Shown here: positions 8,073 to 40,108 of the stretch, piece after piece
Numbering within the stretch: the first letter of the stretch is position 1
Layout: each line of letters begins with the position of its first letter
Source: Clostridia bacterium
GTDB taxonomy: Bacteria > Bacillota > Clostridia > Oscillospirales > Acutalibacteraceae
Direction of reading: 5' to 3'
DNA length: 43,306 nucleotides
Assembly: GCA_017430145.1 (NCBI GenBank)
Contig: JAFRNP010000170.1
Coordinates: 1 to 43,306 of the forward strand
Translations under genes and position numbers: made by a program
The notes under the pieces: model-generated
The model's input: the letters and a program-made list of their open reading frames with translations, nothing else
The model's database searches: none
Told to the model about the DNA's origin: nothing

Positions 8073-8332
8073 AAAAGTGGAAAGTTATGAAAGTTATAAA
8101 AGTTGAAAAATCGGAACGCCGCGCTACGCGGCGTTGATGATAGAAAGCAGATCCCCCGCGCCGGCCCTCATCTGTAATCGAACACGCCCGTAACGTCCGC
8201 AGGACACATCACGCGGCGTAAGGTGCACATCATTTGCGAAGCAAGTATCACGTGCGAAGCACATATGATCGGGTGCCGGGCGGAGCCCGCCCGCATTTGT
8301 AACTTTGTATCTTTTTAACTTTGTAACTTTTA
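8073..8332. repeat. Intergenic element copy 1 (AAAGT-array/hairpin family)
   Basis: The element starts directly after the permease stop codon and ends about 20 bases before the next start. The left array holds AAAGT-type units at 8074-8105 (periods 7-9). The right array is four exact 8-bp units at 8299-8330 (GTAACTTT, GTATCTTT, TTAACTTT, GTAACTTT). Inside are short hairpins: 8115-8135 (9-bp arms, CTA loop), 8234-8244 and 8252-8262 (both around GCGAAGC) and 8277-8289 (around GCGGAGC). The last 70 bases are almost identical to the end of copy 2. No gene is visible. Confidence 0.85.
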
Positions 8333-8350
8333 CAAAAAAGGGGTGGTTTT

Positions 8351-9160
8351 GTGGCAGCGCGTAAATCAAACCCGTTCCTGATTTTGGGCGGCGTACTGAT
8401 CGCGGCGTTTCTGGCGCTTGCGGTGTTCGGCGCGCTGTTTTCTCCGCAGGACCCCAACGCCATGCAGGCCGGGGAAAAGCTGCTGGCGCCGTCGCTGACG
8501 CACCTGTTCGGGACCGACCGGTTCGGCAGGGATATCTTCAGCCGCGCGCTGGCGGGGCTGGGGACCACCTTTTTCGTCGCGGCGGCAACGGTGGCGATCG
8601 GCGCCGTTTTCGGGACGCTGACCGGCGCCCTGACCGGCTACTACGGCGGCGTCGCCGACGCGGCGCTGATGCGGCTCAACGATACGCTGACCGCGTTCCC
8701 CGCCGTTTTGCTGGCGCTGCTGGCGATCAGCCTTCTGGGGCCGGGAAAGGAGAGCAGCCTTGTGCTGGCGCTGGGGCTCGTGTTTATCCCCGGGTACGCG
8801 CGGCTGATGCGCACCGCCTTCGCGTCGCCTTCCAACCGCGCCTTCGTGCTTTCCGCGCGGCTGATGGGCGCAAAGGGTGCGAGGATCATTTTTGTGCAGC
8901 TGCTGCCGAATACGCTGCCAACGCTCCTGCCTGCGCTGACCATCGGCTTCAACAACGCCGTGCTGGCGGAGGCGGGCATGAGCTTTCTCGGTATCGGCGT
9001 CACCCCGCCGGACGCCTCCCTCGGCTATATGCTGTCCGAGGCGCAGGGGATGCTGGCGGCGGCGCCCTGGTACGCGGCTTGTGTCGGCGGCGTGATCGTG
9101 CTGCTGGTGTTTGCGGTGGGGCTGTTCGGCGAAGGGCTGCAGAGACGGATGCATACCTGA
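8351..9160 (+). CDS. Peptide ABC transporter permease, DppC/OppC type
   Basis: This 269-aa second membrane subunit pairs with the product of 7137-8072. It carries the family residues LFGTDRFGRDIFSRAL after the first helix, five further hydrophobic segments and the EAA loop LSARLMGAKGARIIF at about 167-181. The GTG at 8351 is chosen because AAAGGGGTGG lies just upstream and the next in-frame ATG falls inside the first loop. It follows intergenic element copy 1, which replaces the short intercistronic gap usual in such operons. Confidence 0.9.
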   Translation: MAARKSNPFLILGGVLIAAFLALAVFGALFSPQDPNAMQAGEKLLAPSLTHLFGTDRFGRDIFSRALAGLGTTFFVAAATVAIGAVFGTLTGALTGYYGGVADAALMRLNDTLTAFPAVLLALLAISLLGPGKESSLVLALGLVFIPGYARLMRTAFASPSNRAFVLSARLMGAKGARIIFVQLLPNTLPTLLPALTIGFNNAVLAEAGMSFLGIGVTPPDASLGYMLSEAQGMLAAAPWYAACVGGVIVLLVFAVGLFGEGLQRRMHT

Positions 9161-9223
9161 CGCCCGAACGACGCGATGTTTTCGGTGCGGCCGGCTGATG
9201 AATGATGAGATCGTATAAAAACT

Positions 9224-9245
9224 GCCGCCGGCTTTTTTCGGCGGC
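9224..9245 (+). other. Hairpin before the first ATPase gene
   Basis: GCCGCCG (9224-9230) pairs with CGGCGGC (9239-9245) around a loop containing six T residues. It ends just before the ribosome binding site GGAGGA (9248-9253). It lacks a downstream T-run, so it is more likely a processing, stability or translation element than a terminator. Confidence 0.5.
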
Positions 9246-9259
9246 GCGGAGGAAGAACA

Positions 9260-10027
9260 ATGCTTCTTGAGGTCCGGTCCCTGTGTGTCCGGTATGACGA
9301 AAAAAGCGAACCGGCGGTACGGGACGTTTCGTTTTCTCTGGACGACGGTGAGATCCTGGGGCTTGTGGGCGAGTCCGGCAGCGGAAAAAGCGCGGCCGCC
9401 CGCGCGATCATGGGGCTGCTGCCCGCAGACGCCGCCGTGACGGGGCAGGTCCTGTTCGACGGCGCGGATCTGACGGCGGTGTCCGATAAAGAGCGCCGGA
9501 AATATCTCGGCAGCGAAATCGGCATGGTGTTCCAGGAGCCGCTCTCCGCCATGGACCCGCTGATGCGCGTGGGCAGACAGGTGGAGGAGACGCTGCGGAT
9601 CCATGCGTCCATGTCCGCCGCCGAGCGGAAAGCGCGGGCGCTGGAGGCGCTGGCAATGGCGGGACTGCCGGAGCCGGGAGCCGTTTACCGTGCGTACCCC
9701 CATATGCTCTCCGGCGGGATGCTGCAGCGGGCGATGATCGCGGCGGCGATCGCAGCCGGGCCGCGGCTGCTGATCCTGGACGAACCCACCACCGCCCTTG
9801 ACGTGACCGTGCAGGCGCAGATCCTGAACCTGCTGAAAACGCTGAACGAAACGCAGCATATCGCCATGCTGTTTATCTCCCACGACCTCGGGGTGGTCAG
9901 AAAGATCTGCCCGGGCGTCGCCGTCATGCAAAAAGGGGAGATCGTGGAGACGGGCGAAACCCAAGTTGTTTTCCAGTCGCCGCAGCACCCCTATACAAAG
10001 CTGCTGCTTGCGGCAAAAGAAGGATAA
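9260..10027 (+). CDS. Peptide ABC transporter ATPase, DppD/OppD type
   Basis: This 255-aa cytoplasmic ATPase energises the transporter. Visible motifs are Walker A GESGSGKS (37-44, Lys43), signature LSGGMLQR (from 150), Walker B LLILDEPTTALD (Asp174, Glu175) and the switch His208 in ISHDLG. It is shorter than the usual 320-335 aa because it ends soon after the QHPYT motif, lacking the C-terminal oligopeptide-ABC extension that in some members binds an Fe-S cluster. GGAGGA sits six bases before the ATG. The partner ATPase gene is not next to it but about 3.4 kb downstream. Confidence 0.9.
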   Translation: MLLEVRSLCVRYDEKSEPAVRDVSFSLDDGEILGLVGESGSGKSAAARAIMGLLPADAAVTGQVLFDGADLTAVSDKERRKYLGSEIGMVFQEPLSAMDPLMRVGRQVEETLRIHASMSAAERKARALEALAMAGLPEPGAVYRAYPHMLSGGMLQRAMIAAAIAAGPRLLILDEPTTALDVTVQAQILNLLKTLNETQHIAMLFISHDLGVVRKICPGVAVMQKGEIVETGETQVVFQSPQHPYTKLLLAAKEG

Positions 10028-10038
10028 AAACAGGAACC

Positions 10039-11670
10039 ATGATGATGAAAACCGAATTCTACCAGATCACCGACCCCGCCGCCTGCCCGGCTGCGATCGA
10101 ACGCGTCGCGTCGCTGCTCAGACAGGGAGAAGTGGCGGCGATCCCCACCGAGACCGTTTACGGGCTCGCCGGCAGCGCCTTTTCGGCGGACGCCGTTAAA
10201 AAGATCTTTGAAGCCAAGGGCAGGCCGCAGGATAACCCGCTGATCGTCCATATCTCGGACCTCGAAATGCTGCCGACGGTCGCCGGGCGGATCCCCGAAG
10301 ACGCGTATAAGCTTGCAAAGGCGTTCTGGCCGGGGCCGCTGACGGTCATTCTGCCCAAAAAGGATACCGTCCCGGCAGTGGTAAGCGCGGGGCTCGATAC
10401 CGTTGCCGTGCGGTTTCCGTCCCATCCTGTGGCGGCGGCGATCATCCGCGCGGCGGGGCTGCCGCTGGCGGCGCCCAGCGCCAACCTCTCGGGCTTTCCG
10501 AGCCCTACGGAGGCGCAGCATGTGATCGACGATTTGACCGGCCGCGTCGCCGCCATCGTGGACGGCGGCCCCTGTGGGTTCGGTATCGAATCCACGGTGG
10601 TGACGCTGGCGGGCGAAACGCCGCGCCTTCTTCGCCCGGGCGTGATCACCCGCGAACAGCTCGAAGAAGTGCTCGGCAAAACGGTGGAGATCGACCCGGC
10701 CGTGCTCTCCCCCCTGCAGGACGGGCAGGCTGCGGCGTCGCCGGGCATGAAATATAAGCATTACGCCCCCAACGCGAAGCTGACCGTGATCAAGGGCGGC
10801 CTGACGGCGTTTCTTACGTATGTAAACGCGCATCCGGATGATGCGGACCACGTCCTCTGTTTTGAGGAGGAGGCCCCGGTGATGCCGCTTCCCTGTGTGA
10901 CCATGGGACGGCGGGCGGACCCCCTGACCCAGACCCGGCGGCTGTTCGACGCGCTGCGGGAGCTGGACGCCGACGGCGCGAAACGGGTGTTCGCCCGGGC
11001 GCCGGAACCTGTGGGGATCGGGCTCGGTGTGTGCAACCGGCTGTACCGGGCGGCGGGCTTTACGTTCGCCGAAATGCCGGGCGTCGGCCGCGTGATCGGG
11101 GTCTGCGGCGGCAGCGGCAGCGGCAAAAGCACCGTCTGCGAGCGCCTGCGGGACATGGGTTGCGTCTGGATCGATACCGACGCCGTCGCCCGTGAGATCG
11201 TGCAGCCCGGCTCGCCGGTGCTGCCGCGGCTGCAGGCGGCGTTCGGCGCGGATATCCTGCGCCCCGACGGCTCCCTTGACCGCGCCCTGTTGGCGCAAAG
11301 GGCGTTTGCCGACGCCGAAACTTCAAAAACGCTCAGCGCCATCACGCATCCTGCCATTGTCGGGATCGTCAAAGAACGCATGGCGCCTTTGCTCGAAGCC
11401 GGCAAAACCGTTCTGATCGACGCGCCGCTGCTGTTTACCTCCGGGCTCAGTCACATCTGCGACCTGACCGTGAAGGTGACGGCGCCCGAAGCGGAGCGCG
11501 TCCGGCGGATCATGCAGCGCGACGGGATCTCTCAAGAGGCGGCTTTGCGCCGGATCCGCGCGCAGGCGCAGGAGGACGCGCTTTCCGACGCCGCGGACCT
11601 GATCATTGAAAACGACGATTTGGCAGAGCTTGAAGGAAAAGCAGAAAACATTTTGAAAGTATCAAAGTAA
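10039..11670 (+). CDS. Fused Sua5 threonylcarbamoyl-AMP synthase and dephospho-CoA kinase
   Basis: This 543-aa protein joins two housekeeping enzymes. Residues 1-340 are a complete Sua5: a YrdC-like domain (IPTETVYGLAG, KGRPQDNPLIVHI, PSANLSG, LRPGVIT) and the Sua5 C-terminal domain ending near CNRLYRAAGF. It makes threonylcarbamoyl-AMP for tRNA t6A. After a linker of about ten residues, 350-543 form CoaE, the last step of CoA synthesis, with P-loop GGSGSGKST (Lys363), DTDAVAREIV, DAPLLF and a C-terminal helical part. There is no stop or frameshift between the halves. Three ATGs lie at 10039, 10042 and 10045 behind AGGA (10032-10035); spacing favours the second or third. The last codons (KVSK then TAA) lie in an AAAGT array. 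The fusion sits between transporter genes to which it has no obvious functional link. Confidence 0.85.
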   Translation: MMMKTEFYQITDPAACPAAIERVASLLRQGEVAAIPTETVYGLAGSAFSADAVKKIFEAKGRPQDNPLIVHISDLEMLPTVAGRIPEDAYKLAKAFWPGPLTVILPKKDTVPAVVSAGLDTVAVRFPSHPVAAAIIRAAGLPLAAPSANLSGFPSPTEAQHVIDDLTGRVAAIVDGGPCGFGIESTVVTLAGETPRLLRPGVITREQLEEVLGKTVEIDPAVLSPLQDGQAAASPGMKYKHYAPNAKLTVIKGGLTAFLTYVNAHPDDADHVLCFEEEAPVMPLPCVTMGRRADPLTQTRRLFDALRELDADGAKRVFARAPEPVGIGLGVCNRLYRAAGFTFAEMPGVGRVIGVCGGSGSGKSTVCERLRDMGCVWIDTDAVAREIVQPGSPVLPRLQAAFGADILRPDGSLDRALLAQRAFADAETSKTLSAITHPAIVGIVKERMAPLLEAGKTVLIDAPLLFTSGLSHICDLTVKVTAPEAERVRRIMQRDGISQEAALRRIRAQAQEDALSDAADLIIENDDLAELEGKAENILKVSK

Positions 11671-11967
11671 GAAAGTAGGAAAGTAACAAATGCGGAACGC
11701 CGCTTTAGCGGCGTTGATGACAGTGCGTTTCATTTTTGTACGGACCTTCATCTATGATCGGGTGTCGGGCGGTCTTTACAAAAAAGGATAAAACAGAAAC
11801 GGAGAAGGGGTTCGGTCCGCGCCTGACGGCGCGATATTATGCCCCTCATCCGCCCCTGCGGGGCACCTTCCCCCCATGGGTGAAGGCTTCCGGATGCATT
11901 TATGATCGGGTGCCGGGCGGAGCCCGCCCTTATTTGTAACTTTGTATCTTTTTTACTTTGTAACTTT
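11656..11967. repeat. Intergenic element copy 2 (AAAGT-array/hairpin family)
   Basis: The left array is four exact 8-bp units at 11656-11687 (AAAGTATC, AAAGTAAG, AAAGTAGG, AAAGTAAC). The right array is four exact units at 11936-11967 (GTAACTTT, GTATCTTT, TTTACTTT, GTAACTTT). The two ends are imperfect inverted repeats. The stop codon of the Sua5-CoaE gene (11668-11670) lies inside the second left unit. Inside are a hairpin at 11696-11715, two copies of a TATGATCGGGTG segment, and a second repeat-like insert at about 11841-11887 (CCCCTCATCCG to GTGAAGGC). The element ends about 20 bases before the aminopeptidase start. No gene is visible. Confidence 0.85.
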
Positions 11968-11986
11968 TAATTTTATGGAGGTTGTT

Positions 11987-13387
11987 ATGGAAGAAAACGT
12001 CATCACTACGGAGGAACGCAAAAAGGAGTTGTTTTACAAACCCGCGCATGCGGCGGCCGTCATGGACGACGAGGCGATCGCGCAGGCGGACAGCTTTTGC
12101 GAGGGGTACAAGGATTTCCTCGACGCCGCCAAAACGGAACGCGAGGCGGTGGAGGAGGCGATCGCGCTGGCGCGCGCCAACGGTTTCCGCGAATACGAGC
12201 CGGGCGCGTACTATCCAGCGGGCAGCAAGGTGTATTACAACAACCGCGGCAAAGCGGTCGTGCTGGCGGTGATCGGCGCGCTGGGCCTCGGCGAAGGCGC
12301 CAGGATCGTGGCGGCGCATATCGATTCCCCGCGGCTGGATCTGAAACCCAACCCGCTGTACGAGGACGCAGGGGAGGCGTTTTTCAAAACGCACTATTAC
12401 GGCGGCATCAAAAAGTACCAGTGGACCGCGATCCCGCTTGCCCTGCACGGCGTGGTGGTCAAAAAGGACGGCTCCGCGGTGCGGGTACGCCTGGGCGAAA
12501 ATCCGGAGGATCCGAAGTTCGTGATCACGGATCTGCTGCCGCACCTGGCGGGGGAGCAGATGAAAAAGCCCCTTGCCACCGGTGTGGAAGGGGAGGACCT
12601 GAACATCCTTGTGGGGTCGCGTCCCTTTGACCGCAGCGACGCCGCGGATAATATCAAACTCCACATTCTTGACCTGCTCAACCGCAGCTACGGCATCACG
12701 GAGGCGGATTTCCTCAGCGCGGAGCTGGAGATCGTGCCGGCGTTTTCCGCCTGCGATATCGGTTTTGACCGCTCCATGATCGGCGCCTACGGGCAGGACG
12801 ACCGCGTGTGCGCCTATCCGGCGCTCATGGCGCTGCTGGATACCGAGGAGCCGGAAAAAACCGGCGTCTGCGTGCTGACGGATAAGGAAGAGATCGGCAG
12901 CGAGGGCAACACGGGCCTCAATTCCGACTATCTCCGGTTCTTCATCGAGGCGCTGGCGCGGTCCGAGGGGCTGAGCGGCGGCGAGGTGCTTTCCCGCTCC
13001 TGCTGTCTGTCCGCGGACGTGAACGCGGCGTTTGATCCCATTTATCCGGGTGTGTTTGAAAAGCAGAACGTCTCTTATATCAACCGGGGCGTCGTTGTTA
13101 CAAAGTATACCGGTTCAAGAGGCAAGGGCGGCTCCTCGGACGCCGGCGCCGAGCTGCTTGCCGAGGTGCGGCGGCTGTTTGACGACGCCGGCGTCTGCTG
13201 GCAGACCGGAGAGCTGGGCAAGGTGGACGCCGGCGGCGGCGGGACGGTCGCGCGCTTCGTGGCGGGCATGAACGTGGACGTTGTGGACGTGGGCGTGCCG
13301 GTCCTGTCCATGCACGCGCCGTTTGAAGTGACGGCAAAGCTGGACGTCTGGGCGGCGTATAAGGCGTGTCTGGCGTTCTTTGCCTGA
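11987..13387 (+). CDS. M18-family aminopeptidase
   Basis: This 466-aa metallo-aminopeptidase of the M18 (aspartyl aminopeptidase) family removes N-terminal residues from peptides in the cytoplasm using two metal ions. Candidate ligands are visible in AAHIDSPRLDLKP (His111, Asp113), DKEEIGSEG (Glu301, Glu302) and SMHAPFE (His443), in the order and spacing of the family. The ATG at 11987 has GGAGG (11977-11981) five bases upstream. An open frame continues back to 11942, but that part is the repeat array translated, so I exclude it. The gene sits inside the peptide transporter operon, 20 bases before the second ATPase gene, which suggests it hydrolyses imported peptides. Confidence 0.92.
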   Translation: MEENVITTEERKKELFYKPAHAAAVMDDEAIAQADSFCEGYKDFLDAAKTEREAVEEAIALARANGFREYEPGAYYPAGSKVYYNNRGKAVVLAVIGALGLGEGARIVAAHIDSPRLDLKPNPLYEDAGEAFFKTHYYGGIKKYQWTAIPLALHGVVVKKDGSAVRVRLGENPEDPKFVITDLLPHLAGEQMKKPLATGVEGEDLNILVGSRPFDRSDAADNIKLHILDLLNRSYGITEADFLSAELEIVPAFSACDIGFDRSMIGAYGQDDRVCAYPALMALLDTEEPEKTGVCVLTDKEEIGSEGNTGLNSDYLRFFIEALARSEGLSGGEVLSRSCCLSADVNAAFDPIYPGVFEKQNVSYINRGVVVTKYTGSRGKGGSSDAGAELLAEVRRLFDDAGVCWQTGELGKVDAGGGGTVARFVAGMNVDVVDVGVPVLSMHAPFEVTAKLDVWAAYKACLAFFA

Positions 13388-13406
13388 TTCGTAAAAGGAG
13401 ATCTCC

Positions 13407-14159
13407 ATGAATACCGCTCCTGTTTTGGAAGTCTGCGGCCTCTCCGGCGGTTACCGTGAAAAAAACGTGTTCGGCGGCAGGGGCAAAGAACAAGAGGTGC
13501 TCCATGACGTCAGCTTTACGCTGTACCGCGGGGAGATCCTGGGCCTGGTGGGCGAGTCCGGCACCGGCAAAACGACGCTCTGCCGTCTGATATTGGGGCT
13601 GCAGCCCCCGAGCGCGGGCACGGTGCGCATCATGCCCCCGCCGGACCGGCCGGGTGCGCCGCCGCAGATGATCTTTCAGGACCCCGCTTCCGCCCTGAAC
13701 CCGGCGTTTTCCGTACGCAGGATCCTGGAGGAACCGCTGAAGCTCGCCAAGGTCCCGGCGGCCGGACGGGAGGCAAAGATCCTCGAAATGCTGGCGCTGA
13801 CGGGCATGGATCCGGAATGCCTCTCAAGGCAGCCCGCGCAGCTTTCGGGCGGGCAGCGGCAGCGGGTGTGCATCGCTGCGGCGCTGCTGGCGGAGCCAAC
13901 GCTTTTGCTGGCGGATGAGCCCGTCTCCGCCCTTGACGTTACGGTGCAGGCGCAGGTGCTTTCCCTTTTGCGGTCGCTGCGGCAGAAGCTGGAGCTGAGT
14001 ATGCTGTTCATTTCCCACGACCTCGGCGTTGTGGCGCGGCTGTGCGACCGGGTACTGGTCATGAAGGACGGCAGGATCGTGGAGCAGGGGGAGATCGGCA
14101 GCGTCTTCCAAAACCCGCAGCATCCCTATACGCAGCGGCTGCTGGCGGACAGCTTATAA
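13407..14159 (+). CDS. Peptide ABC transporter ATPase, DppF/OppF type
   Basis: This 250-aa second ATPase of the transporter carries Walker A GESGTGKTT (49-57, Lys55), the Q-loop in PPQMIFQDP, signature LSGGQRQR, Walker B LLLADEPVSALD and ISHDLGVVARLC. It ends soon after the QHPYTQRLL motif, so like its partner it lacks the usual C-terminal extension. AAAAGGAG lies six bases before the ATG. It lies 20 bases after the aminopeptidase gene and 55 bases before mntP. A degenerate AAAGAT-rich stretch follows its stop codon and may be a decayed array of the intergenic element family. Confidence 0.9.
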   Translation: MNTAPVLEVCGLSGGYREKNVFGGRGKEQEVLHDVSFTLYRGEILGLVGESGTGKTTLCRLILGLQPPSAGTVRIMPPPDRPGAPPQMIFQDPASALNPAFSVRRILEEPLKLAKVPAAGREAKILEMLALTGMDPECLSRQPAQLSGGQRQRVCIAAALLAEPTLLLADEPVSALDVTVQAQVLSLLRSLRQKLELSMLFISHDLGVVARLCDRVLVMKDGRIVEQGEIGSVFQNPQHPYTQRLLADSL

Positions 14160-14213
14160 AATAATAAAAGATCAAAGATGAAATTCCGTTTACAGGGACA
14201 GGGAGGCGGCAGA

Positions 14214-14798
14214 ATGGCGCTTGACGCCATGTTTTTTATCAACAGTATTCTGTTCGGCGTGGGGCTTGCCATGGACGCCTTTTCGGTGTCGGTGGCAAAC
14301 GGGCTGCGGCACCCCGATCTCGGGCGCAGCCGCCGCGTGCTGATCGCCGGCACCTTCGCGCTGTTCCAGACCGCGATGCCGCTGATCGGCTGGTTTTTCG
14401 TCCACGCGGCGGCGGAGACCTTTTCTGCCTTTTCCCGTTTTATTCCGTGGATCGCGCTGGCGCTGCTGCTGTATATCGGCGGGCAGATGCTTTGGGAGGG
14501 TCTGCGGAAAAAGGAGGAGGCGCCGCCGGAGCTGACCGGAAAAACGCTGGTTTTGCAGGGGCTTGCCACCTCCATCGACGCCCTGTCCGTGGGGTTCACG
14601 ATCGCGGAGTTCGGCTGGCTGCCGGCAGTGATCCAGGCGCTGATCATCGGCGTCGTGACCTTCGGGATCTGTGCCGTGGGGCTGATCATCGGGAAAAAAG
14701 CGGGCGAACACCTGCGGCAGAAAGCGGCGATCCTCGGCGGCGTGATCCTGATCGGCATCGGGATCGAGATCTTTGTGAAGGGCGTTTTCTTTTCGTAA
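14214..14798 (+). CDS. mntP: Manganese efflux pump MntP
   Basis: This 194-aa membrane protein belongs to the MntP (DUF204) family, which exports excess Mn(II). Two internally repeated halves carry the key acidic motifs MDAFSVSVANG and SIDALSVGF in membrane helices, with six predicted helices in all, matching the family's usual 180-195 aa. I chose the ATG at 14214 because GGAGG (14202-14206) is seven bases upstream; starting at 14178 would add an unusual polar leader. It is the last gene of the operon. No yybP-ykoY manganese riboswitch was recognised upstream, so control by manganese is not evident here. Confidence 0.9.
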   Translation: MALDAMFFINSILFGVGLAMDAFSVSVANGLRHPDLGRSRRVLIAGTFALFQTAMPLIGWFFVHAAAETFSAFSRFIPWIALALLLYIGGQMLWEGLRKKEEAPPELTGKTLVLQGLATSIDALSVGFTIAEFGWLPAVIQALIIGVVTFGICAVGLIIGKKAGEHLRQKAAILGGVILIGIGIEIFVKGVFFS

Positions 14799-14819
14799 AA
14801 CATACCACGAAATAACCAC

Positions 14820-14852
14820 CGGCGGCAGGCTGCTTTCGCAAACCTGCCGCCG
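14820..14852. terminator. Convergent hairpin between mntP and the DUF4956 gene
   Basis: A perfect 10-bp GC-rich stem (14820-14829 with 14843-14852) sits in the convergent junction. Neither strand has a good T-run after it, so it may act as a transcript-end stabiliser or weak bidirectional terminator. Confidence 0.5.
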
Positions 14853-14887
14853 ACGGTATATAGAGGAGAAGAAAGGAAAGGAAAAAA

Positions 14888-15583
14888 TCAAAGTTCGTTG
14901 TGCGCGTCCGCTTTTTCGGTGAGCTGGATCTCCAGGTTCCCGTTGCGCGTGCGCAGCGCGTCGATCAGCGCCTTCTCCGCGTCCGCGTTTTTCAGGGTGA
15001 GATCGTACGTCAGCTTAAAAAGGCTGCCCATGTTGGCGGTCTTTATTTTTGTGCGGCGGAAATAGGAGGTGTACTGTTCAAAGGCGTCGTCGAACGCGTC
15101 GGTGAGGTTCAGGTCCTCCGGGACGGTGATCTTCAACGTGCGGTCAAGGGTGACGCGGTTGTTTTCGCCGAAGCGGGAGTTGTTCAGCAGCAGCATCAGC
15201 GCCGCCATAATAAAGGTGAACAGCGCGGCGTACGCCAGGTAGCCCATGCCGGCGATCAGGCCCACGCCCATGGCGATAAAGATGGAAACGATCTCCTTCG
15301 CGCTGCCGGGGGCGGAGCGGAACCGCACCAGACTGAACGCGCCCGCCACCGCCACGCCTGCGCCGATGTTGCCGTTGACCAGCATGATCACCACGGTCAC
15401 CACCGCGGGCAGAAGGGCGATCGCCAGCGTCAGGCTCTTTTTGTCGCGGGCGCGGAAGGTGCTGGCCAGCGCCAGCAGCATGCCCAGAGCCAGAGAGACG
15501 GCGATGCACAGGATAAAGTTTTTTACGGAGATCACGTTGGTGGCGTCCGTATCAAAAAGTCCGCTGAAAAGATCGTTAAGCAT
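14888..15583 (-). CDS. DUF4956 membrane protein
   Basis: This 231-aa protein has three to four hydrophobic helices within residues 15-140, including a short loop SLVRFRSAPGSAKEIV between helices, and a cytoplasmic alpha/beta C-terminal part (about 145-231). This is the DUF4956 layout. The family is usually encoded next to VTC-type polyphosphate polymerase domain genes, as here. ATG 15583 with GGAGGA (15591-15596) is preferred over an in-frame ATG 33 bases further upstream. It overlaps the VTC gene by eight bases, which implies translational coupling. My inference is that it is the membrane partner of the VTC protein, by analogy to the small membrane subunit of the yeast VTC complex. The biochemical function is not established. 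Confidence 0.85.
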   Translation of the reverse strand: MLNDLFSGLFDTDATNVISVKNFILCIAVSLALGMLLALASTFRARDKKSLTLAIALLPAVVTVVIMLVNGNIGAGVAVAGAFSLVRFRSAPGSAKEIVSIFIAMGVGLIAGMGYLAYAALFTFIMAALMLLLNNSRFGENNRVTLDRTLKITVPEDLNLTDAFDDAFEQYTSYFRRTKIKTANMGSLFKLTYDLTLKNADAEKALIDALRTRNGNLEIQLTEKADAHNEL

Positions 15584-16349: not shown

Positions 16350-16372
16350 CGTCCTCGCCTCCTTTGATTCAA

Positions 16373-16405
16373 AGTATAAAGGACCAACTTTAAGCGAAGT
16401 TTAAG
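16373..16405 (-). promoter_or_regulatory. Tandem 11-bp operator and promoter of the VTC operon
   Basis: Reading the minus strand, CTTAAACTTCG (16395-16405) is followed without a gap by CTTAAAGTTGG (16384-16394), then five bases, then TATACT (16373-16378). The second repeat lies where a -35 box would be. The same arrangement, with the same five-base gap, occurs before the Cthe_2159 gene. Direct repeats at one-helical-turn spacing over the -35 position are typical of activation by OmpR/PhoB-family response regulators. No such regulator gene is in the window. Confidence 0.75.
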
Positions 16406-16423
16406 TGCAGAAAAAATAATAAA

Positions 16424-16450: not shown

Positions 16451-16493
16451 AATATTCGGGGGTTCGTGATCAGCGCAGTCAGAAAAACGTCCG

Positions 16494-18706: not shown

Positions 18707-18721
18707 CGAAAAATCTTTTTT

Positions 18722-20096: not shown

Positions 20097-20388
20097 AAAG
20101 TATCAAAGTATGAAAGTAAGAAAGTATCAAATACGGAAGGGCTTCGCCCTTGATTATAAAGCGAAGGTCCATGCTGTGATCGGGCGCTGCTCTTTCCGCT
20201 TTATCCCGATCAACGGGTCATCCTTTGCGGCCGAAGCGTAAAGAAGGTTGTGACCGGGCGCTGCATCCCGTTTTTTTCCCGATCGACGGGTCATCCTTTG
20301 GGGCTGAAGCATAAAGACGGCTATAATCAACGCGCGCAAACGCGCGTTCCTCATTTGTAACTTTGTATCTTTTTCACTTTCAAACTTT
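20097..20388. repeat. Intergenic element copy 3 (AAAGT-array/hairpin family)
   Basis: The left array is four exact 8-bp units at 20097-20128 (AAAGTATC, AAAGTATG, AAAGTAAG, AAAGTATC). The right array is four units at 20357-20388 (GTAACTTT, GTATCTTT, TTCACTTT, CAAACTTT). The right end lies three bases from the stop codon of the upstream minus-strand gene (20392). The left end lies about 20 bases before the start of the downstream gene. Inside are hairpin 20137-20151 (GAA triloop on the minus strand), a roughly 70-bp segment present twice in tandem between about 20177 and 20320 (shared CCCGATC, ACGGGTCATCCTTTG), and a CGCGCG-armed hairpin near 20330. No gene is visible. Confidence 0.85.
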
Positions 20389-26507: not shown

Positions 26508-26709
26508 AAAGTAATAAAGCAATAAAATAAAAAACAGAACGCCGCACGAAGCGGCGTCGATCACAGAAAATACAGCAGAAAGATAAAGGACCCGGAAAAA
26601 AGCACTACGGCGTTGATGACACCGGGCTTTTTTTACGGACCACTTCAAATAATCAAGCGCGAAGCGCTTCCTTATTTGTAACTTTGTATCTTTCTTACTT
26701 TCCTGCTTT
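26508..26709. repeat. Intergenic element copy 4 (AAAGT-array/hairpin family)
   Basis: The left array is degenerate (AAAGTAAT, AAAGCAAT, AAAATAAA at 26508-26531). The right array keeps the 8-bp period at 26678-26709 (GTAACTTT, GTATCTTT, CTTACTTT, CCTGCTTT). Inside are hairpin 26539-26557, a CCCGG/CCGGG stem (26591-26595, 26622-26626) followed by T residues, a second partial GGCGTTGATGA segment, and a GAA-triloop hairpin 26655-26669 with six-base arms. It lies between the terminator of the SGNH gene and the feoAB promoter. No gene is visible in 26412-26757. Confidence 0.8.
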
Positions 26710-33807: not shown

Positions 33808-33816
33808 ACATGATCT

Positions 33817-33842
33817 GGAGCCGAATCTGCTTCGGCTCCTTT
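33817..33842 (+). terminator. Terminator after the symporter gene
   Basis: GGAGCCGAA (33817-33825) pairs perfectly with TTCGGCTCC (33831-33839), followed by four T residues (33839 on). The short T-run may allow read-through into the glycosidase gene 32 bases further on. Confidence 0.75.
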
Positions 33843-33873
33843 TCCTATAACAATAATAATCGGAGGAAACGGT

Positions 33874-35922
33874 ATGGATTATGAAAAAGCGCGCTCGCGC
33901 GCAGAAAAAATCGTTGCAGGGATGACCGCCCAGGAGAAGATGTCGCAGCTTTTATATGAATCCCCGGCGATCGAACGGCTCGGCATCCATGAATACAACT
34001 GGTGGAACGAGGCGTGCCACGGCGTGGCGCGTTCCGGCGTCGCCACGGTCTTTCCGCAGTCCATCGGCATGGCGGCAAGCTTCCATCCGGCGCTGATGTA
34101 TGAGGTGGCCGCCGCCATCTCCGACGAGGCGCGGGCAAAGTACAACCAGAGCGTCGCGTTCGGGGACCGGGGCATTTTCAAGGGGCTCACCTATTGGGCG
34201 CCGAACATCAATATTTTCCGCGATCCCCGCTGGGGACGCGGGCAGGAGACCTGCGGCGAAGACCCGTTTCTGACCGCTGAGATCGGCGCGGCGTTTATCA
34301 GAGGCCTGCAGGGAGACGGGGAATTTTTCAAAGCGGCGGCGTGCGCCAAGCATTTCGCCGTCCACTCCGGCCCGGAGCGCCTGCGCCACGGCTTCAACGC
34401 CGAAGCGTCTCCGAAAGATCTGGAGGAGACCTATCTGCCCGCCTTCAAAAAGGCGGTGGAAGCCGGCGTCGCGGGCGTTATGGGCGCCTATAACCGTACG
34501 AACGGCGCGCCCTGCTGCGCAAACGTCCCGCTGATTCAGACGATCCTGCGCGGAAAATGGGGTTTCCGGGGGTATTTTGTTTCCGATTGCGGCGCCGTCC
34601 GGGATATCTGCACGGGGCATCACTATACCGAAACGCTGACCGAAGCCGCCGCCGCCGCTTTAAAGGCGGGGTGCGAGCTCAACTGCGGGGACGCGTTCAA
34701 ATATCTGGTGGACGCGTACGAGGAGGATCTGGTCACGGACGAAGAGATCACCGAGGCTGCGGTCCGGCTTTTCACCATCCGCGTATTGCTGGGTGAGTTT
34801 GAAGAAGAGCGTCCTTTTGCGGACGTCCCGTATTCGGTCGTCTGCTGCCCGGCGCACAAGGCGCTGAGTCTGCGGGCAGCGGAGGAGTCGATCGTTCTGC
34901 TCGAAAATAAAAACGGCTTCCTGCCGCTGGATAAAACAAAAAAGCGCCGCATCGCCGTGGTGGGGCCCAACGCCATGTCCGTACAGGTGCTGGAGGGCAA
35001 CTATTACGGCCACGCGGACGAATACGTCACGGTGGCGGACGGCTTCCGCCGCGTTTTCCCGGACTGCGAGATCGTTGTGGCGGACGGCTCGCCCGTGTAT
35101 CAGGACGACGGCAGGCGCTGGGACGGTTTCGTGGATCTGGAAAGCGAAGGCGCCGCGGCTGCGAAAAGCGCCGATCTCACGGTGCTCTGCCTGGGGCTTG
35201 ACCGCAACGTGGAGGGCGAGGACCTTGGGTGTGAAAACGATTTTACCGATTTCGGCGACCGCAAGACCCTGCTGCTGCCGGAATGCCAGCGCAAACTTGC
35301 CGAAGCGGTATGCGCCGTCTGTGAAAACGTCGTGGTCGTCGTCATGTGCGGCAGTGCCGCGGATCTGGGCGACAAGGTCCGCGCCCACGCCAGGGCGGTG
35401 CTCCACGCCTGGTACCCGGGAGCTATGGGCGGACTTGCCGTCGCACGGGCGGTTGCAGGGGAGTTTTCCCCCTCCGGAAAACTGCCGATCACTTTCATGC
35501 GTGCCGATACGCCCGTTCCGGATATGGCGGACTACCGTATGGCGGGCAGGACCTACCGGTACATGGCCGAAAAGCCGCTGTATCCCTTCGGCTACGGCCT
35601 CAGCTACACCACGTTTCAGTACGGGGAGCTGCGGCAGGTCTCTGCGGACGACGACAAGGTCGTCATGGAGACCGAGATCACGAATACGGGAAAAATGGAC
35701 GCCTGGGAAAAAGCGCAGCTTTACGCCCGGTTCCGTGACAGCCGTACCGAAACGCCCCTGCGCCAGCTTGTCGCCCTTTCGCCGGTTTATCTCAAACGCG
35801 GCGAAACGAAGACCGTGACCTTTACCGCGGACCGGTTCTGGCTCAAGGCGGTGCTTGAGGACGGTACGCGTGTTGACCCTGACGGCGGTATCGTCTTCAG
35901 CACGGCGAGCAGTACGCAGTAA
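33874..35922 (+). CDS. Glycoside hydrolase family 3 beta-glycosidase
   Basis: This 682-aa enzyme has no signal peptide, so it probably acts on imported glycosides in the cytoplasm. It has the family-3 N-terminal barrel and C-terminal sandwich plus a fibronectin-like end. The substrate-pocket motif YNWWNEACHGVA and RDPRWGRGQETCGEDP are typical of the xylosidase/arabinosidase-like branch. CAKHFAVHSGPE binds the sugar. The nucleophile is Asp238 in FVSDCGAV. The C-terminal domain shows LLENKNGFLPL, VVGPNA and YPFGYGLSYTTF. CGGAGG lies eight bases before the ATG. It is next to the GPH symporter gene. Beta-glucosidase and beta-xylosidase activities are both possible, with the WNE(A)xHG motif favouring xylosidase. 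Confidence 0.92.
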   Translation: MDYEKARSRAEKIVAGMTAQEKMSQLLYESPAIERLGIHEYNWWNEACHGVARSGVATVFPQSIGMAASFHPALMYEVAAAISDEARAKYNQSVAFGDRGIFKGLTYWAPNINIFRDPRWGRGQETCGEDPFLTAEIGAAFIRGLQGDGEFFKAAACAKHFAVHSGPERLRHGFNAEASPKDLEETYLPAFKKAVEAGVAGVMGAYNRTNGAPCCANVPLIQTILRGKWGFRGYFVSDCGAVRDICTGHHYTETLTEAAAAALKAGCELNCGDAFKYLVDAYEEDLVTDEEITEAAVRLFTIRVLLGEFEEERPFADVPYSVVCCPAHKALSLRAAEESIVLLENKNGFLPLDKTKKRRIAVVGPNAMSVQVLEGNYYGHADEYVTVADGFRRVFPDCEIVVADGSPVYQDDGRRWDGFVDLESEGAAAAKSADLTVLCLGLDRNVEGEDLGCENDFTDFGDRKTLLLPECQRKLAEAVCAVCENVVVVVMCGSAADLGDKVRAHARAVLHAWYPGAMGGLAVARAVAGEFSPSGKLPITFMRADTPVPDMADYRMAGRTYRYMAEKPLYPFGYGLSYTTFQYGELRQVSADDDKVVMETEITNTGKMDAWEKAQLYARFRDSRTETPLRQLVALSPVYLKRGETKTVTFTADRFWLKAVLEDGTRVDPDGGIVFSTASSTQ

Positions 35923-35977
35923 GACCGTTTATTTCCTGCGCAGATATTCATTTTCTGTTTCCGCCTGAAAAAGCCTA

Positions 35978-36006
35978 TTGAAAATTACAGGCGCAGATAG
36001 TATAAT
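35978..36006 (+). promoter_or_regulatory. Promoter of the DUF4428 repeat-protein gene
   Basis: TTGAAA (35978-35983), a 17-base spacer and a perfect TATAAT (36001-36006) lie 33 bases before the start. Confidence 0.8.
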
Positions 36007-36039
36007 GAAAGTACAAAAATAATAAAGGGGTTTTGCAAT

Positions 36040-37191
36040 ATGGCACTTTTCGAGAAAAAATTCTGCGATATCTGCGGAGAGAAAATCGGGCTTCTGGGCA
36101 ACCGCAAGCTGGAGGACGGCAATCTCTGCAAGGATTGTGCATCGAAACTTTCTCCTTTTTTCAGCGAGCGCAAGCAGTCTACGGTGGAGGAGATCCGCCG
36201 GCAGCTTGACTACCGTGAGAAAAACCGGCAGGAGCTGAACAGCTTTTCACCCACACGTACCCTCGGGGCAGAAAAGAAAGTGTACATCGACGACCGTTCG
36301 CGCCGTTTCGTCATCACGTCTGCCGGCGACCTGCGCGCCGCGAACCCGGACCTGATTTCCCTTGACCAGGTCACAGGCTGCCGGATGCAGATCGATGAAG
36401 ATAAGGACGAGGTGTATACCACGGACAGCGAGGGCAAGCGCGTCTCCTACAATCCCCGCCGGTATGAGTACCACTATGATTTTTATATCGACCTGAACGT
36501 CAACCACCCGTATTTCAACGAGATCCGCTTTAAAGTGAACAAGACCCGGCCCGACAGCCGTTACTCTGAGGAGTACCGTAACTATGAATACCAGGCGAAC
36601 GAGATCGTCTCGGCGCTGACGGGGCAGGCCATGGGCGGCTTCCAACCCGGCGCGTTTCAGCAGGCAGGCTTCCAGCAGCAGGCAGGATTCCAGCAGGGGT
36701 ATCCGCAACAACAGGGGTACCCGCAGCAGGGCTTCCCGCAGCAGGGTTTCCCGCAGCAGCAGGGGTATCCGCAACAACAGGGCTTCCCGCAACAGGGTTT
36801 CCCGCAGCAGCAAGGCTATCCGCAGCAGCAGGGCTTCCCGCAGCAGCAGGGCTACCCGCAGCAGCAGGGCTACCCGCAGCAGCAGGGCTACCCGCAGCAG
36901 CAGGGTTATCCGCAGCAGCAGGGTTATCCGCAGCAGCAAGGTTTCCCGCAGCAGCAAGGTTTCCCGCAGCAGCAAGGTTTCCCGCAGCAACAGGGTTTCC
37001 CGCAGCAGGGATATCCGCAGCAAGAGTATCCGCAGCAGACCGGTTTTCAGCAGGGGTACCCGCAGCAGGAGGCGCCTCAGGCCGGTTACGGCGCGCCCGC
37101 GGCTGCGGCGATCCAGTGGACTTGTCCGGCTTGCGGCAGCACCGGGAATACGTCGAATTTCTGTTCTGCCTGCGGAACGCCGCGTCCGTGA
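36040..37191 (+). CDS. DUF4428 protein with Gly-Tyr/Phe-Pro-Gln repeats and zinc ribbon
   Basis: This 383-aa cytoplasmic-looking protein starts with a DUF4428-type zinc motif (Cys9, Cys12, Cys30, Cys33), followed by a conserved beta-rich domain to about 195 containing [14 protein letters not shown] and [13 protein letters not shown]. Residues 200-350 are about twenty imperfect [11 protein letters not shown] units, an aromatic- and Gln-rich low-complexity tract. It ends with a second zinc ribbon, CPACG and CSACG. The AAGGGG ribosome site and a strong promoter suggest good expression. The tract resembles aggregation- or phase-separation-prone sequences such as those of annexin A11 or synexin-like tails, but that comparison is only by composition. 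The function is unknown. Confidence 0.8.
36640..37080. repeat. Coding repeat tract for PQQ(Q)G(Y/F)
   Basis: Imperfect 15- and 18-bp units (CCGCAGCAGCAGGGCTAC type) run for about 440 bases. Units alternate Tyr and Phe codons and two or three Gln codons. The frame is kept throughout because every unit is a multiple of three, so copy-number change would alter length without loss of function. Confidence 0.9.
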
Positions 37192-37200
37192 TTTTTTGTA

Positions 37201-37228
37201 CCGCAGCCGAAAAAGCTGCGGTTTTTTT
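37201..37228 (+). terminator. Terminator after the DUF4428 gene
   Basis: CCGCAGC (37201-37207) pairs with GCTGCGG (37215-37221), followed by seven T residues. Confidence 0.9.
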
Positions 37229-37240
37229 GCCGTTTCTCCG

Positions 37241-37263
37241 TCATGCAACATCTTGTTGCGTGA
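37241..37263. promoter_or_regulatory. Palindrome upstream of the XRE-family gene
   Basis: TCATGCAACA (37241-37250) and TGTTGCGTGA (37254-37263) are inverted with one mismatch around three bases. The site is 73 bases before the start of a gene encoding an XRE-type DNA-binding domain, the usual place for an autoregulatory operator. As RNA it would form a tight hairpin followed by only CTTTT, so a second terminator is the alternative. Confidence 0.5.
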
Positions 37264-37335
37264 CTTTTGAGGCTTTTTGTGTTTCAATAAAGGCGGAGAA
37301 CGGATCTCCCGGTTCAAAGAACGGAGGCGGACGCT

Positions 37336-38796
37336 TTGACGAACGTATCAAAAAACATCCGGCGGCTGCGTCGGGAAAAGACGCTCACCCAGGAGCAGCT
37401 GGCAGAGCAGCTGCACGTGACGCGGCAGACGGTCTCAAGCTGGGAAAACAACCGCACCCAGCCGGATATCGATATGCTGGCGGCGCTGTCGGCGGCGCTG
37501 GAGACCGACATCGAAACGCTGATCTACGGCAAACGGCACAATACGTCCCTTGAGCCGGACGTCTCCGAAAACCGGCGGCTGCTGCTTTTGGTGCTGACGG
37601 TATTCGGCACGCTGCTGAGCGCGGCCGGCGTGATTCTGATATTCGTTTTTTTATGGCAAAAGCTGCCTGCGCTCGTCCGGTACGTTCTGGCGTTCCTGCC
37701 GCTGCTTGTCGGCGGCGGCGCGGGCGCGGCGTCGCTGTTTTACAAAAGAGGCGTTTCCCAGACGGTCAGGGAGGGCGCGTCTGTCCTCTGGATGGCGGGC
37801 GTGATCGCTTCGAACGCGCTGGTGAACGGCCTGTTTATGACGGAGATCGGCTTTGAAAACCTGCTGCTGATCGACGTGATCGTGCTCACGCCCGTCATGT
37901 TTGTGCTGCGCGCCGCCGCCCCCTTTGCCGCGACCGCCGTTATGAGCTGCTGGTACATGGCGCTTGTTGCGGACAGCGACCGTTTTTATATCTTCTGCTG
38001 CCTGTTTTTGCTGTATATCGCCGTGGGCGAATGGTTTCTGCAGACCGTGAGCCTGCAGCAGACGGTCAAAAAATGCGCCGCATGGATCCAGAAGCTGCGC
38101 ATGGGATTCTTTGCGGCGATCATATGCTTTATGTTCAAAAGCGTGGATATCTGGTTCCTGCCGTCCATACTTGCCGCGTATTGCCTTCAGCTCTCTGCCG
38201 TCGGGGAAGATAAACGCTGTTCCCTGCGGTTATTATACCCGGGCATGTTCGGCGCCTGTGTATTCGCCGTCCTTTGTTTTGTCTGGGATATGCCGGGCGT
38301 TTTTGACGACGCGTACCGGAAGGATATGCGTCCGGTCAGCGTGCTTGCGCTGCTGGTCTGGGCGGTCGGTTTCGCGGTCGGTTTCAGACGCATGAAAAAG
38401 GATGCGCTTCTTTTGGCAGGGCAATGCTGTATGGGCGTATTTTTTGCGCTGCAGCTTCTGGCCGGATGGGTCCCGTTTGAACCGTTTCAGATCATCCTGC
38501 CGCTGTTGTGTCTGTCTTACTGTATAACGGTGCTTCTGTACGGCGTCAAAAACGCGCGGCTTTCGGCGGCAAACGTCGGGATGCTCAGTATCTCGGCGAT
38601 CCTGTTCGTGTTTTATTTCCGCTGGTTTGAGGATGAAAACTTATTTGTTCCGGGGCTGCTGCTGGTTTGTACCGGCGCGGCGCTGCTGATCGCAAACAGG
38701 GTCCTGATCAAGCGCTTCCGGGCGAAAAAAGCAGGACCGGGGACAGACAAGGGGCAGGAGACAGGAACGGAAACGGAGGTGGACGGCCGTGCGTAA
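37336..38796 (+). CDS. XRE-family regulator fused to a polytopic membrane domain
   Basis: This 486-aa protein has an N-terminal Cro/C1-type helix-turn-helix (residues 5-60, LTQEQLAEQLHVTRQTVSSWENNRTQPD) followed by about twelve hydrophobic helices (80-465) and a charged C-terminus. The membrane part resembles DUF2157-like domains, with low certainty. Membrane-tethered XRE regulators of this kind are known in Firmicutes, where they may sense envelope signals. I chose the TTG at 37336: GGAGG (37323-37327) is eight bases upstream and no ATG or GTG precedes the HTH. The palindrome at 37241-37263 may be its own operator. It overlaps the next gene by eight bases. Confidence 0.75.
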   Translation: MTNVSKNIRRLRREKTLTQEQLAEQLHVTRQTVSSWENNRTQPDIDMLAALSAALETDIETLIYGKRHNTSLEPDVSENRRLLLLVLTVFGTLLSAAGVILIFVFLWQKLPALVRYVLAFLPLLVGGGAGAASLFYKRGVSQTVREGASVLWMAGVIASNALVNGLFMTEIGFENLLLIDVIVLTPVMFVLRAAAPFAATAVMSCWYMALVADSDRFYIFCCLFLLYIAVGEWFLQTVSLQQTVKKCAAWIQKLRMGFFAAIICFMFKSVDIWFLPSILAAYCLQLSAVGEDKRCSLRLLYPGMFGACVFAVLCFVWDMPGVFDDAYRKDMRPVSVLALLVWAVGFAVGFRRMKKDALLLAGQCCMGVFFALQLLAGWVPFEPFQIILPLLCLSYCITVLLYGVKNARLSAANVGMLSISAILFVFYFRWFEDENLFVPGLLLVCTGAALLIANRVLIKRFRAKKAGPGTDKGQETGTETEVDGRA

Positions 38797-39373
38797 GATA
38801 ATGGCGATCGTTTTGATTGCGGTTCAGGTTTTAACGGCGGCGGGCCTGATCGTTTACCGGCATCTGTATGACCGTGCGGTCGTAACGAAGGGGACGGAGA
38901 TGCTGTTTGCTTTGTCCGAACTGCACGTCGAAAGGACCGGGGCCGAAGATGAAGATGAGGACGACGCGGTCCGCCTGACGCTTATTATTGTTGAAAGCGG
39001 TATGGGCTACGGACGGTATGGGGTGCTGACAGAAGGGGAAAACGGGATGTGGATCTCCCGGTCGGAGGAGGAACCGCCGGAAAAAGAGCCGTTTCTCATT
39101 CATGAGCGGATGTACCAACGCGATACGGTTTTCTGTCCGTTGTCGGCGCTGTCGGTTATTCCGTTCCCCGAATGGCAGAACTGGAAATACTATGATTATT
39201 ATGACGATGAGACCGGCGAGCCTTACGATTCCGGAAAAATGATGATCGAAGGCAAACTGGTTTCCGTGCAGGCGCGCGGGTACGTTTACAAAGGCGACGT
39301 GATCTTTACAGAGCTGCTGTTTGACGGCGAAACGGTCGCAGAGTTGTATTCCGATCCGAATTTCATGCGGTGA
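38789..39373 (+). CDS. Small membrane-anchored protein of unknown function
   Basis: This 194-aa protein has an N-terminal anchor helix (about residues 4-22) and a mostly outer domain with an acidic EDEDEDD stretch near 53-59 and several Tyr-rich segments (WKYYDYYDD). The GTG start at 38789 has GGAGG eight bases upstream and overlaps the regulator gene by eight bases, so translation is coupled. An ATG at 38801 is possible. Being paired with a membrane XRE/DUF2157-like protein recalls the DUF2157-GDYXXLXY gene pairs, but I cannot see the GDYxxLxY signature, so no family is assigned. Confidence 0.7.
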   Translation: MRKIMAIVLIAVQVLTAAGLIVYRHLYDRAVVTKGTEMLFALSELHVERTGAEDEDEDDAVRLTLIIVESGMGYGRYGVLTEGENGMWISRSEEEPPEKEPFLIHERMYQRDTVFCPLSALSVIPFPEWQNWKYYDYYDDETGEPYDSGKMMIEGKLVSVQARGYVYKGDVIFTELLFDGETVAELYSDPNFMR

Positions 39374-39406
39374 ACCCTGTTTATAATAACGCATCTGCGT
39401 AAAAAT

Positions 39407-39445
39407 GTGCCCATTCGCACGTCTGACAGACGTACGAACGGGCAC
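39407..39445. terminator. Long hairpin, probable bidirectional terminator
   Basis: 19-base arms (39407-39425, 39427-39445) with two mismatches are flanked by AAAAAT on the left and TCTTTTT on the right. The apex is CTGACAG. The two mismatches are C-A pairs in a plus-strand transcript but G-U wobbles in a minus-strand transcript. Confidence 0.75.
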
Positions 39446-39472
39446 TCTTTTTCTGAAAACGGAAAACAAGGT

Positions 39473-39501
39473 TTGCATTTCGCTTTTTTCTCCTGTATAA
39501 T
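39473..39501 (+). promoter_or_regulatory. Promoter of the YgjP-type peptidase gene
   Basis: TTGCAT (39473-39478), a 17-base spacer and TATAAT (39496-39501) lie 24 bases before the start. The -35 hexamer is the same as at 5428. Confidence 0.8.
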
Positions 39502-39524
39502 TGACTATAAAAAGGAGAAAAACG

Positions 39525-40085
39525 ATGGAAAAAGAGTATCAATTGATCCGCAGCGACCGGAAAACGGTGGGGCTGCAGATCAAAAAGGACGGCTCCCTGG
39601 TGGTGCGGGCGCCCTACGGCGTTTCCGAAAGGGAGATCGAGCGACTGGTCCGCGAAAAGCGGGACTGGATCGAAAAGCACCGGACAAAAATCGAAGAGAC
39701 CCGGGCGCAGACAGAAAACGTGCAGCCCCTGACGTATGAGGAACTGCAAACACTTGCCGAGCGTGCGCTGGCATACATCCCGCAGCGCGTGCGTTACTAC
39801 GCGCCGAAGGTGGGCGTTACCTACGGCAGGATCACGATCCGCAACCAGAAGTCCCGCTGGGGGAGCTGCTCGGCGAAAGGGAACCTGAACTTCAACTGTC
39901 TTCTGATGCTGACCCCGCCCGAGGTCATCGACAGCGTGGTGGTGCACGAGCTGTGCCACCGCAAAGAGATGAACCACTCCCCGCGTTTCTACGCGGAAGT
40001 GCGCCGCGTATTTCCCGAGTACGACCGATGGAACAAATGGCTCAAACAAAACGGCGCGGCGATCATGGAAAAGAATAAAAGTTAA
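39525..40085 (+). CDS. YgjP-type (DUF45) zinc metallopeptidase
   Basis: This 186-aa cytoplasmic protein of the YgjP/WLM-like family carries the zinc site HELCH (His141, Glu142, His145) followed by HSPRFY, and the family motif RNQKSRWGSCS upstream. The N-terminal 70 residues are a small beta-rich part followed by a charged helix (EREIERLVREKRDWIEKH). Substrates are unknown. ATG 39525 has AAAGGAG seven bases upstream, and a strong promoter lies just before it; an ATG at 39501 overlaps the -10 box and is rejected. The last codons and the TAA lie inside an AAAAGTTA array, as also seen at the end of the Sua5-CoaE gene. Confidence 0.88.
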   Translation: MEKEYQLIRSDRKTVGLQIKKDGSLVVRAPYGVSEREIERLVREKRDWIEKHRTKIEETRAQTENVQPLTYEELQTLAERALAYIPQRVRYYAPKVGVTYGRITIRNQKSRWGSCSAKGNLNFNCLLMLTPPEVIDSVVVHELCHRKEMNHSPRFYAEVRRVFPEYDRWNKWLKQNGAAIMEKNKS

Positions 40086-40108
40086 AAAGTTAAAGGTTAG
40101 ATAGTCCC
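40077..40108. repeat. Solo 8-bp array of the intergenic element family
   Basis: AAAAGTTA, AAAAGTTA, AAGGTTAG and ATAGTCCC follow one another from 40077 with the 8-bp period of the element ends. The stop codon of the peptidase gene (40083-40085) lies across the first and second units. No right-hand array or hairpin core follows before the next gene. Confidence 0.55.

Follow-up and report, generated by a model that had tools for sequence, protein, structure and literature searches.

The stretch analysed here (hereafter the window) comprises 43,306 nucleotides of a contig (JAFRNP010000170.1) from a Clostridia bacterium of the family Acutalibacteraceae. It carries four intergenic elements whose ends combine a short array of an 8-bp word with a GC hairpin, the two ends of each element facing each other in inverted orientation (Table 1). 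The source genome (G000) is a draft of 3,033,487 bases in 180 contigs, with a completeness of 86.61. The initial annotation had described the ends of the elements as arrays of typically four units with a strict 8-bp period. This holds for all four right ends and for the left ends at 11656-11687 and 20097-20128, whereas the left ends at 8074-8106 and 26508-26532 are degenerate and off register. The solo array that it had also placed at 40077-40108 proved weak: it consists of two exact units, has neither AAATNNGG, hairpin nor partner, fits the end motif only at 5 mismatches, and was for these reasons not counted as an element. According to the open reading frame list of the window, its three paired elements lie between co-directional frames.

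Table 1. Positions of the elements and their parts in the window
Feature	Position	Strand	Remark
Element 1	8073..8332	.	Flanked by co-directional genes for two permeases in an operon for a peptide-type ABC transporter (named by reading)
Element 1, left array	8074..8106	+	Degenerate; end motif only at 5 mismatches
Element 1, left hairpin	8115..8135	+	Class A1 (AACGCCGC..GCGGCGTT)
Element 1, right hairpin	8278..8292	-	Class B (GGGCGGAGCCCGCCC)
Element 1, right array	8299..8330	-	Four 8-bp units, ends ..CTTT
Element 2	11656..11967	.	Stop of upstream frame at 11668-11670, within left array
Element 2, left array	11656..11687	+	Four exact AAAGTNNN units
Element 2, left hairpin	11696..11715	+	Class A1
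Element 2, right hairpin	11915..11929	-	Class B
Element 2, right array	11936..11967	-	Four units
Element 3	20097..20388	.
Element 3, left array	20097..20128	+	Four exact units
Element 3, left hairpin	20137..20151	+	Class A2 (AAGGGCTTCGCCCTT)
Element 3, core repeat	20200..20320	+	48-nt direct repeat, 73-nt spacing, 88% identical
Element 3, right hairpin	20329..20348	-	AACGCGCG..CGCGCGTT
Element 3, right array	20357..20388	-	Four units
Element 4	26508..26709	.	Degenerate left end
Element 4, left hairpin	26538..26558	+	A1-like
Element 4, right hairpin	26655..26669	-	Class A3 (AAGCGC..GCGCTT)
Element 4, right array	26678..26709	-	Four units
Two AAAGTTAA units	40077..40108	+	Doubtful remnant, excluded from elements

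A counted array outside a hairpin

Read from the outside inwards, an end consists of four 8-bp AAAGTNNN units, AAATNNGG and a GC hairpin, followed by a variable core and the inverted counterpart of the same arrangement. With at most 2 mismatches allowed, the pattern AAAGTNNNAAAGTNNNAAAGTNNCAAAT gives 316 end motifs (147 + 169) for the 3.03-Mb genome and 2 for the reversed control, so that further copies exist and the intergenic family proposed from the window is borne out. A hairpin pattern independent of the array gave 60 matches in the same genome and none in 38 others. For local analysis, 118 stretches were taken from places among the matches listed by three pattern searches (right end, end motif and hairpin); together with the window they form a sample of 199,452 bases chosen for these elements. 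It holds 155 end matches at up to 2 mismatches and 185 at up to 5, compared with 0 and 16, respectively, in reversed sequence. The 185 ends were sorted into 62 pairs and 61 solo ends; among the matches listed, some solo ends lie at contig ends and others have a partner too diverged for the pairing rule. Random AT-rich spacers do not account for the arrays: periodic stretches in the sample number 82 at 8 bp, 13 at 9 bp and 8 at 7 bp (0 each after block shuffling), and a first-order Markov model of the window yields two-unit AAAGT runs at 0.04 per simulated window, with none longer in 50 simulations.

Most ends have four units. Among the 155 ends, exactly four units are present in 124, three in 17, two in 4 and five to seven in 10, and 37 of the 62 paired elements have four units at both ends. 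The end-picking pattern requires three units, and ends with fewer are therefore under-sampled, but a stop at four could not be created by it. Column statistics place the limit of conservation at the outer edge of unit four, save for a preference for A (69%) at the next base.

The hairpins were sorted into classes A1, A2, A3, other A and B. In A-type ends the hairpin is preceded by AAATNNGG and followed by GATNATAG, and its stem is intact in 91 of 104 cases with 7 kinds of arm; when an arm is exchanged for that of a randomly chosen other end, pairing occurs in 595 of 2080 trials. The two ends of an element mostly carry unlike hairpins, the same class being found at both in 2 of 60 elements compared with 15.1 expected (ends with at most 4 mismatches; none of 5000 permutations gave so low a count). 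The inner parts are mostly unalike. Nevertheless, 34 of the 62 elements align with another element over at least 80% of their length, and one pair, 274 and 275 nt long, shares 84% identity over 273 nt.

Several rearranged copies were also observed. On one contig (L061, G000:C5), five array ends stand at 827, 936, 1045, 1154 and 1263, a spacing of 109 bp, the repeated unit being flank, hairpin B and array. In L076 and L068, flank and array are duplicated within or beside an element, as if by template switching. A multicopy sequence starting AAGGCAACACCGC cuts into or abuts elements in L057, L064, L069, L102, L132, L140, L154, L161, L167 and L173, nine of these ten stretches having a contig end at the junction; the string is present also in L058, L077, L125 and the window. 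It is probably an insertion sequence that targets these repeats. Within the core of element 1, at 8200-8260, chains of small hairpins with GTGATGT-like linkers occur, which in congeners (L209, L210, L211) lie beside tRNA-like genes. The frame at 10039-11670, which by reading joins a Sua5-type and a CoaE-type protein, ends in the left array of element 2, its final residues and stop being supplied by the repeat.

Insertion sites and congeners

Target duplications, for which the initial annotation had suggested a search, were not found in 51 elements scanned at offsets of -6 to 6 and lengths of 2-9. The best counts were 4/51 at length 3, 3/51 at length 4, at most 1/51 at lengths 5-7 and 0 at lengths 8-9, and the maximum at length 2 (26/51) falls inside the arrays. 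Orthologous sites lacking the element were found for two positions. At 8073-8332, the same gene pair in four congeners is separated by no more than a few tens of bases and holds no element, and at 11656-11967 four congeners have no array, G011 having a short hairpin there. For the sites at 20097 and 26508, the matches to neighbouring genes lie on different contigs of the congeners or are missing among the matches listed. Separate searches with 60 nt of left and of right flank for each of the 62 paired elements, run against all collected sequence, gave no contiguous empty copy.

Some positions are occupied in two genomes. A protein-level search of the stretches of the source genome against congener loci gave four gene boundaries that carry an element at the same spot in the two genomes and are flanked by matching genes on either side (L091/L205, L144/L275, L133/L270, L100/L259), and one position matched on one side (L148/L214). 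Chance would give one or two, as roughly estimated for some 118 sites with the gene number taken to be 2,800. The ends at the shared positions differ as read: they carry AAAGTNNN in the source genome, other words in G011 and G417, and no arrays in G017. The candidate L090/L235 was dropped, as the element lies at opposite ends of an orthologous gene, and L089/L235 was not counted because the shared gene is away from the element.

The octamer itself is narrowly distributed. Counts that include the source genome itself are 2 of 39 relatives for its right end and, for the array pattern, 2 of 394 sampled genomes of the order; the second genome with the array pattern has a single match. The goat-rumen genome RGIG3575 (G002) has a lone element on a 5-kb contig, which may be misplaced. 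Orders beyond its own were covered solely by an exact array scan of genome contigs, which returned 3 stretches; viral contigs gave 0 exact matches to the array pattern. Matches in G224, L054 and L056 have no hairpin as read and were set aside as chance. The A2 hairpin, by comparison, is found in 18 of 25 congeners, at least five times in 12 of these (reversed control 0-4 per genome), and in 2 of 295 genomes of the order, the source genome included and the other again with a single match.

Congeners keep the layout with another word, and thus extend the family. Among 64 distinct A2-hairpin sites out of those fetched, 34 show a 7-bp period directly after the hairpin, compared with 5 of 63 in a control placed 60-100 nt further on. 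Words include ATTGCTA, ACTCCTC, ATCTCAC, AACTTTC, ATTTTGC and ATTCCGC, and 4 or 5 units are present in 29 of 36 rows (the rule admits partial units, and one site is present twice). The same word recurs inverted within 300 nt upstream in 18 of the 34 arrays and in direct orientation in none (0/34); in a between-genome comparison the inverted word was found in 24 of 1092 cases. The sampled sites of G005 and G017 are without 7-bp arrays. Within 70 nt upstream of the A2 hairpin, a second A2 hairpin occurs in 0 of 36 rows and a GGCCTGCGGCC-like hairpin, by the pattern used, in 17 of 36 (one site counted twice, and two rows having less than 30 nt upstream). L280 holds two A2 modules in direct tandem. 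In G011, one end at each of L263, L264, L268 and L269 bears a stack of two or three arrays with different 7-bp words, which looks as though elements had inserted into the edges of others.

Nature of the elements and alternative readings

Among known repeats, repetitive extragenic palindromic sequences (REPs), the bacterial interspersed mosaic elements (BIMEs) that contain them and their hairpin-forming doublets (REPINs) come closest, and like them the elements described here are high-copy intergenic GC hairpins, often in inverted pairs and with mosaic interiors. According to one account, REPs lie close to the 3' ends of genes, and one end of their palindrome carries a GTAG or CGTC tag (PMC3733652). 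The former is seen here too, but no such tag is present, the hairpins being framed by AAATNNGG and, in A-type ends, by GATNATAG. Other differences are the arrays outside each hairpin, the unlike hairpins at the two ends, and that no gene for a REP-associated tyrosine transposase (RAYT) flanked by copies of the four-unit repeat was found in the genome, which is 86.6% complete. Miniature inverted-repeat transposable elements (MITEs) are likewise short, non-autonomous and numerous with inverted ends, which here are the array and AAATNNGG, the hairpins being unlike. However, no target duplication was found, and no full parent transposon with the same ends is among the 62 paired elements, which were joined across less than 600 bp within the sampled stretches and have 33-534 bp between end motifs; the ends are iterated words plus a hairpin, and the core is mostly unshared. 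Defining features of both the REP/BIME and the MITE families were thus not found, in agreement with the earlier view that no named repeat fits them.

IS200/IS605 insertion sequences have subterminal hairpins and insert without target duplication, and their ends are not known to be inverted repeats or to carry arrays. The elements resemble them in having hairpins near the ends and no target duplication, and differ in their arrays and inverted ends and in that no such gene with these ends was found. Short tandemly repeated repetitive (STRR) sequences, the name given to cyanobacterial heptamer direct repeats, occur as isolated arrays that vary in length. For Beggiatoaceae (TAACTGA) and Xanthomonas (GGGAATC), too, 7-bp words repeated in tandem are described from many intergenic places of a genome (PMC4679880, PMC4692102). 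The congener arrays (34/64 sites) are of this kind, the source genome having mostly period 8. The arrays described here differ in usually having about four units, in lying beside a hairpin and in forming inverted pairs, while the Beggiatoaceae sets are nearly all direct (169 direct sets and one indirect repeat; PMC4679880). A literature search covering titles and the starts of abstracts gave no description of hairpin elements with iterated ends.

The elements are best explained, with a probability of roughly 0.58, as non-autonomous, dispersed, mosaic intergenic elements that work like REP/BIME- or MITE-type repeats and have a new kind of end. From their anatomy we infer movement. An end is a compound signal, with usually four short direct repeats outside (8 bp here, 7 bp in congeners) and a GC hairpin inside, and two such ends with different hairpins face each other around a replaceable core. 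A trans-acting protein might read the array, one protomer per unit, together with the hairpin, and move or copy the element, perhaps via a single-stranded or hairpin intermediate, which is suggested because no target duplication was seen. The usual array length of about 32 bp could be set by the protein complex, the unlike hairpins could preserve distinct identities of the two ends or prevent an unstable perfect palindrome, and placement beside stop codons may reflect tolerated sites. The transposase- or protein-binding ends proposed as a possibility by the initial annotation fit the usual four units, their sharp outer limit and the look-alikes of whole elements at other loci, but no enzyme and no target duplication were found.

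A number of observations weigh against such mobile elements. No mobilising gene with these ends was found in the search of the source genome, in which such a gene may have been missed at 86.6% completeness, and the sole Y1_Tnp match found there, a RAYT-like gene at L199 (G000:C57, about 1260-1930), lies inside a different repeat, GTAGGGGCGGGC...GCCCGCC. Around the sites at 8073 and 11656, identity to the congeners is only about 66-75%, and neither site is an exact empty site. An open frame of at least 90 amino acids spans 4 of 59 elements, and solo ends are common. In congeners, 28 of the 64 A2 sites show no period by the threshold used, one has period 5 and one period 9. The four positions shared with a congener bearing different ends could be old and immobile. 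Moreover, perfect palindromes assemble poorly in drafts, so the rule of unlike hairpins may be partly a matter of bias.

Placement bears on the leading alternative, namely that the elements belong to transcript ends: U-rich-tailed hairpins would be bidirectional terminators or 3'-end stabilisers, the arrays would be sites for a cold-shock protein or another binder of single-stranded nucleic acid, and dispersal would be secondary. With flanking frames called by a simple length rule, 29 of the 59 elements outside the window lie between convergent frames, as opposed to 3 of 29 neighbour pairs of the window (genes picked by eye). The genes also come close: of 43 left genes that read towards an element, 13 have their stop no more than 5 bp from its edge and 12 run on into the array before they stop, with some genes in both counts. 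Two hairpins of the window are terminator-like (8135-8115, minus strand; 11915-11929, plus strand), and CspB of Bacillus subtilis can bind heptamer direct repeats with one protein per heptamer, as stated in PMC4679880. Nevertheless, 9 of the 59 elements lie between divergent and 20 between co-directional frames (one has no right frame), element 1 stands inside a tight operon, the tail starts CCNNATTTG without a T run, and 9 terminator-like sites in 4.2 kb are a weak excess over 4.7 (sd 2.1) in shuffles. A role at transcript ends is considered unlikely as the main explanation.

It is still less likely that the elements are REPINs moved by the Y1 transposase of the genome. Much as REPs and BIMEs do, they have hairpins, lie between genes, form inverted pairs and occur in mosaic clusters, and Y1_Tnp matches were found in 16 of 26 genus genomes, the source genome included. 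However, the 3.35-kb locus of the RAYT-like gene has no end motif of the four-unit family, and the GTAGGGGCGGGC repeat around it, which occurs also in or beside elements at L075, L078, L111, L124 and L148, is probably the REP family that this gene serves. In G011, inverted GTAGTACGGCTG repeats flank the Y1 gene, although 7-bp arrays are present 230-330 bp downstream. Besides the lack of a fixed GTAG/CGTC tag, G018 (92% complete) has 15 hairpin sites and no Y1 match, and the association across genomes is weak, with a Y1 match in 10 of 13 genomes with five or more hairpin matches and in 6 of 13 others. A RAYT is thus unlikely to be the mobiliser.

No better odds are given to arrays grown by slippage, as in STRR sequences, beside immobile hairpins, with the two arms evolving in concert. 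The 7-8 bp arrays are alike within an element and different between genomes, shared positions carry different words, and tandem array ends 109 bp apart occur on one contig, all of which speaks for such growth; yet unit number does not spread but is four in most ends (124/155), a single word dominates the 316 dispersed ends, and whole elements recur at different loci. A more speculative reading, and a long shot, is that the array is written and not only inherited: templated, telomere-like or polymerase-driven addition would place about 32 bp of repeats on both ends of a hairpin intermediate, the word being a replaceable address. It is raised because the same word stands about four times at both 3' ends and is swapped between genomes and element families while the hairpins stay, and because some ends hold two consecutive arrays that differ in their word, as do the ends at orthologous positions.

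Least probable of all is a structured RNA closed by the array arms as its base stem, as the initial annotation had suggested: one copy is indeed predicted to fold with its arms paired (-129.6 kcal/mol, z -5.8 against 100 shuffles) and the congener word changes yet stays inverted in both arms (18/34), but the stem is not supported because the variable letters of left and right units do not covary, agreeing at 0.453 of positions compared with 0.523 for shuffled partners (43 elements), and moreover the hairpin classes of the two ends differ in 58 of 60 elements, cores are mostly unalike, and Rfam gave 0 matches at gathering scores within the window.

Altogether, the elements add to the known bacterial intergenic repeats an end type in which a counted array of 7-8-bp words lies outside a hairpin, with a layout that is kept between species although each may spell the word differently. 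It thereby becomes a testable question by what such an array of four 8-bp units is read, or written. The elements may also explain some of the contig breaks in drafts of the genus, and could serve as markers for strain typing.

Elsewhere in the window, at 36684-37072, 18-bp coding repeats give rise to a long low-complexity protein stretch of PQQQGY/F type.

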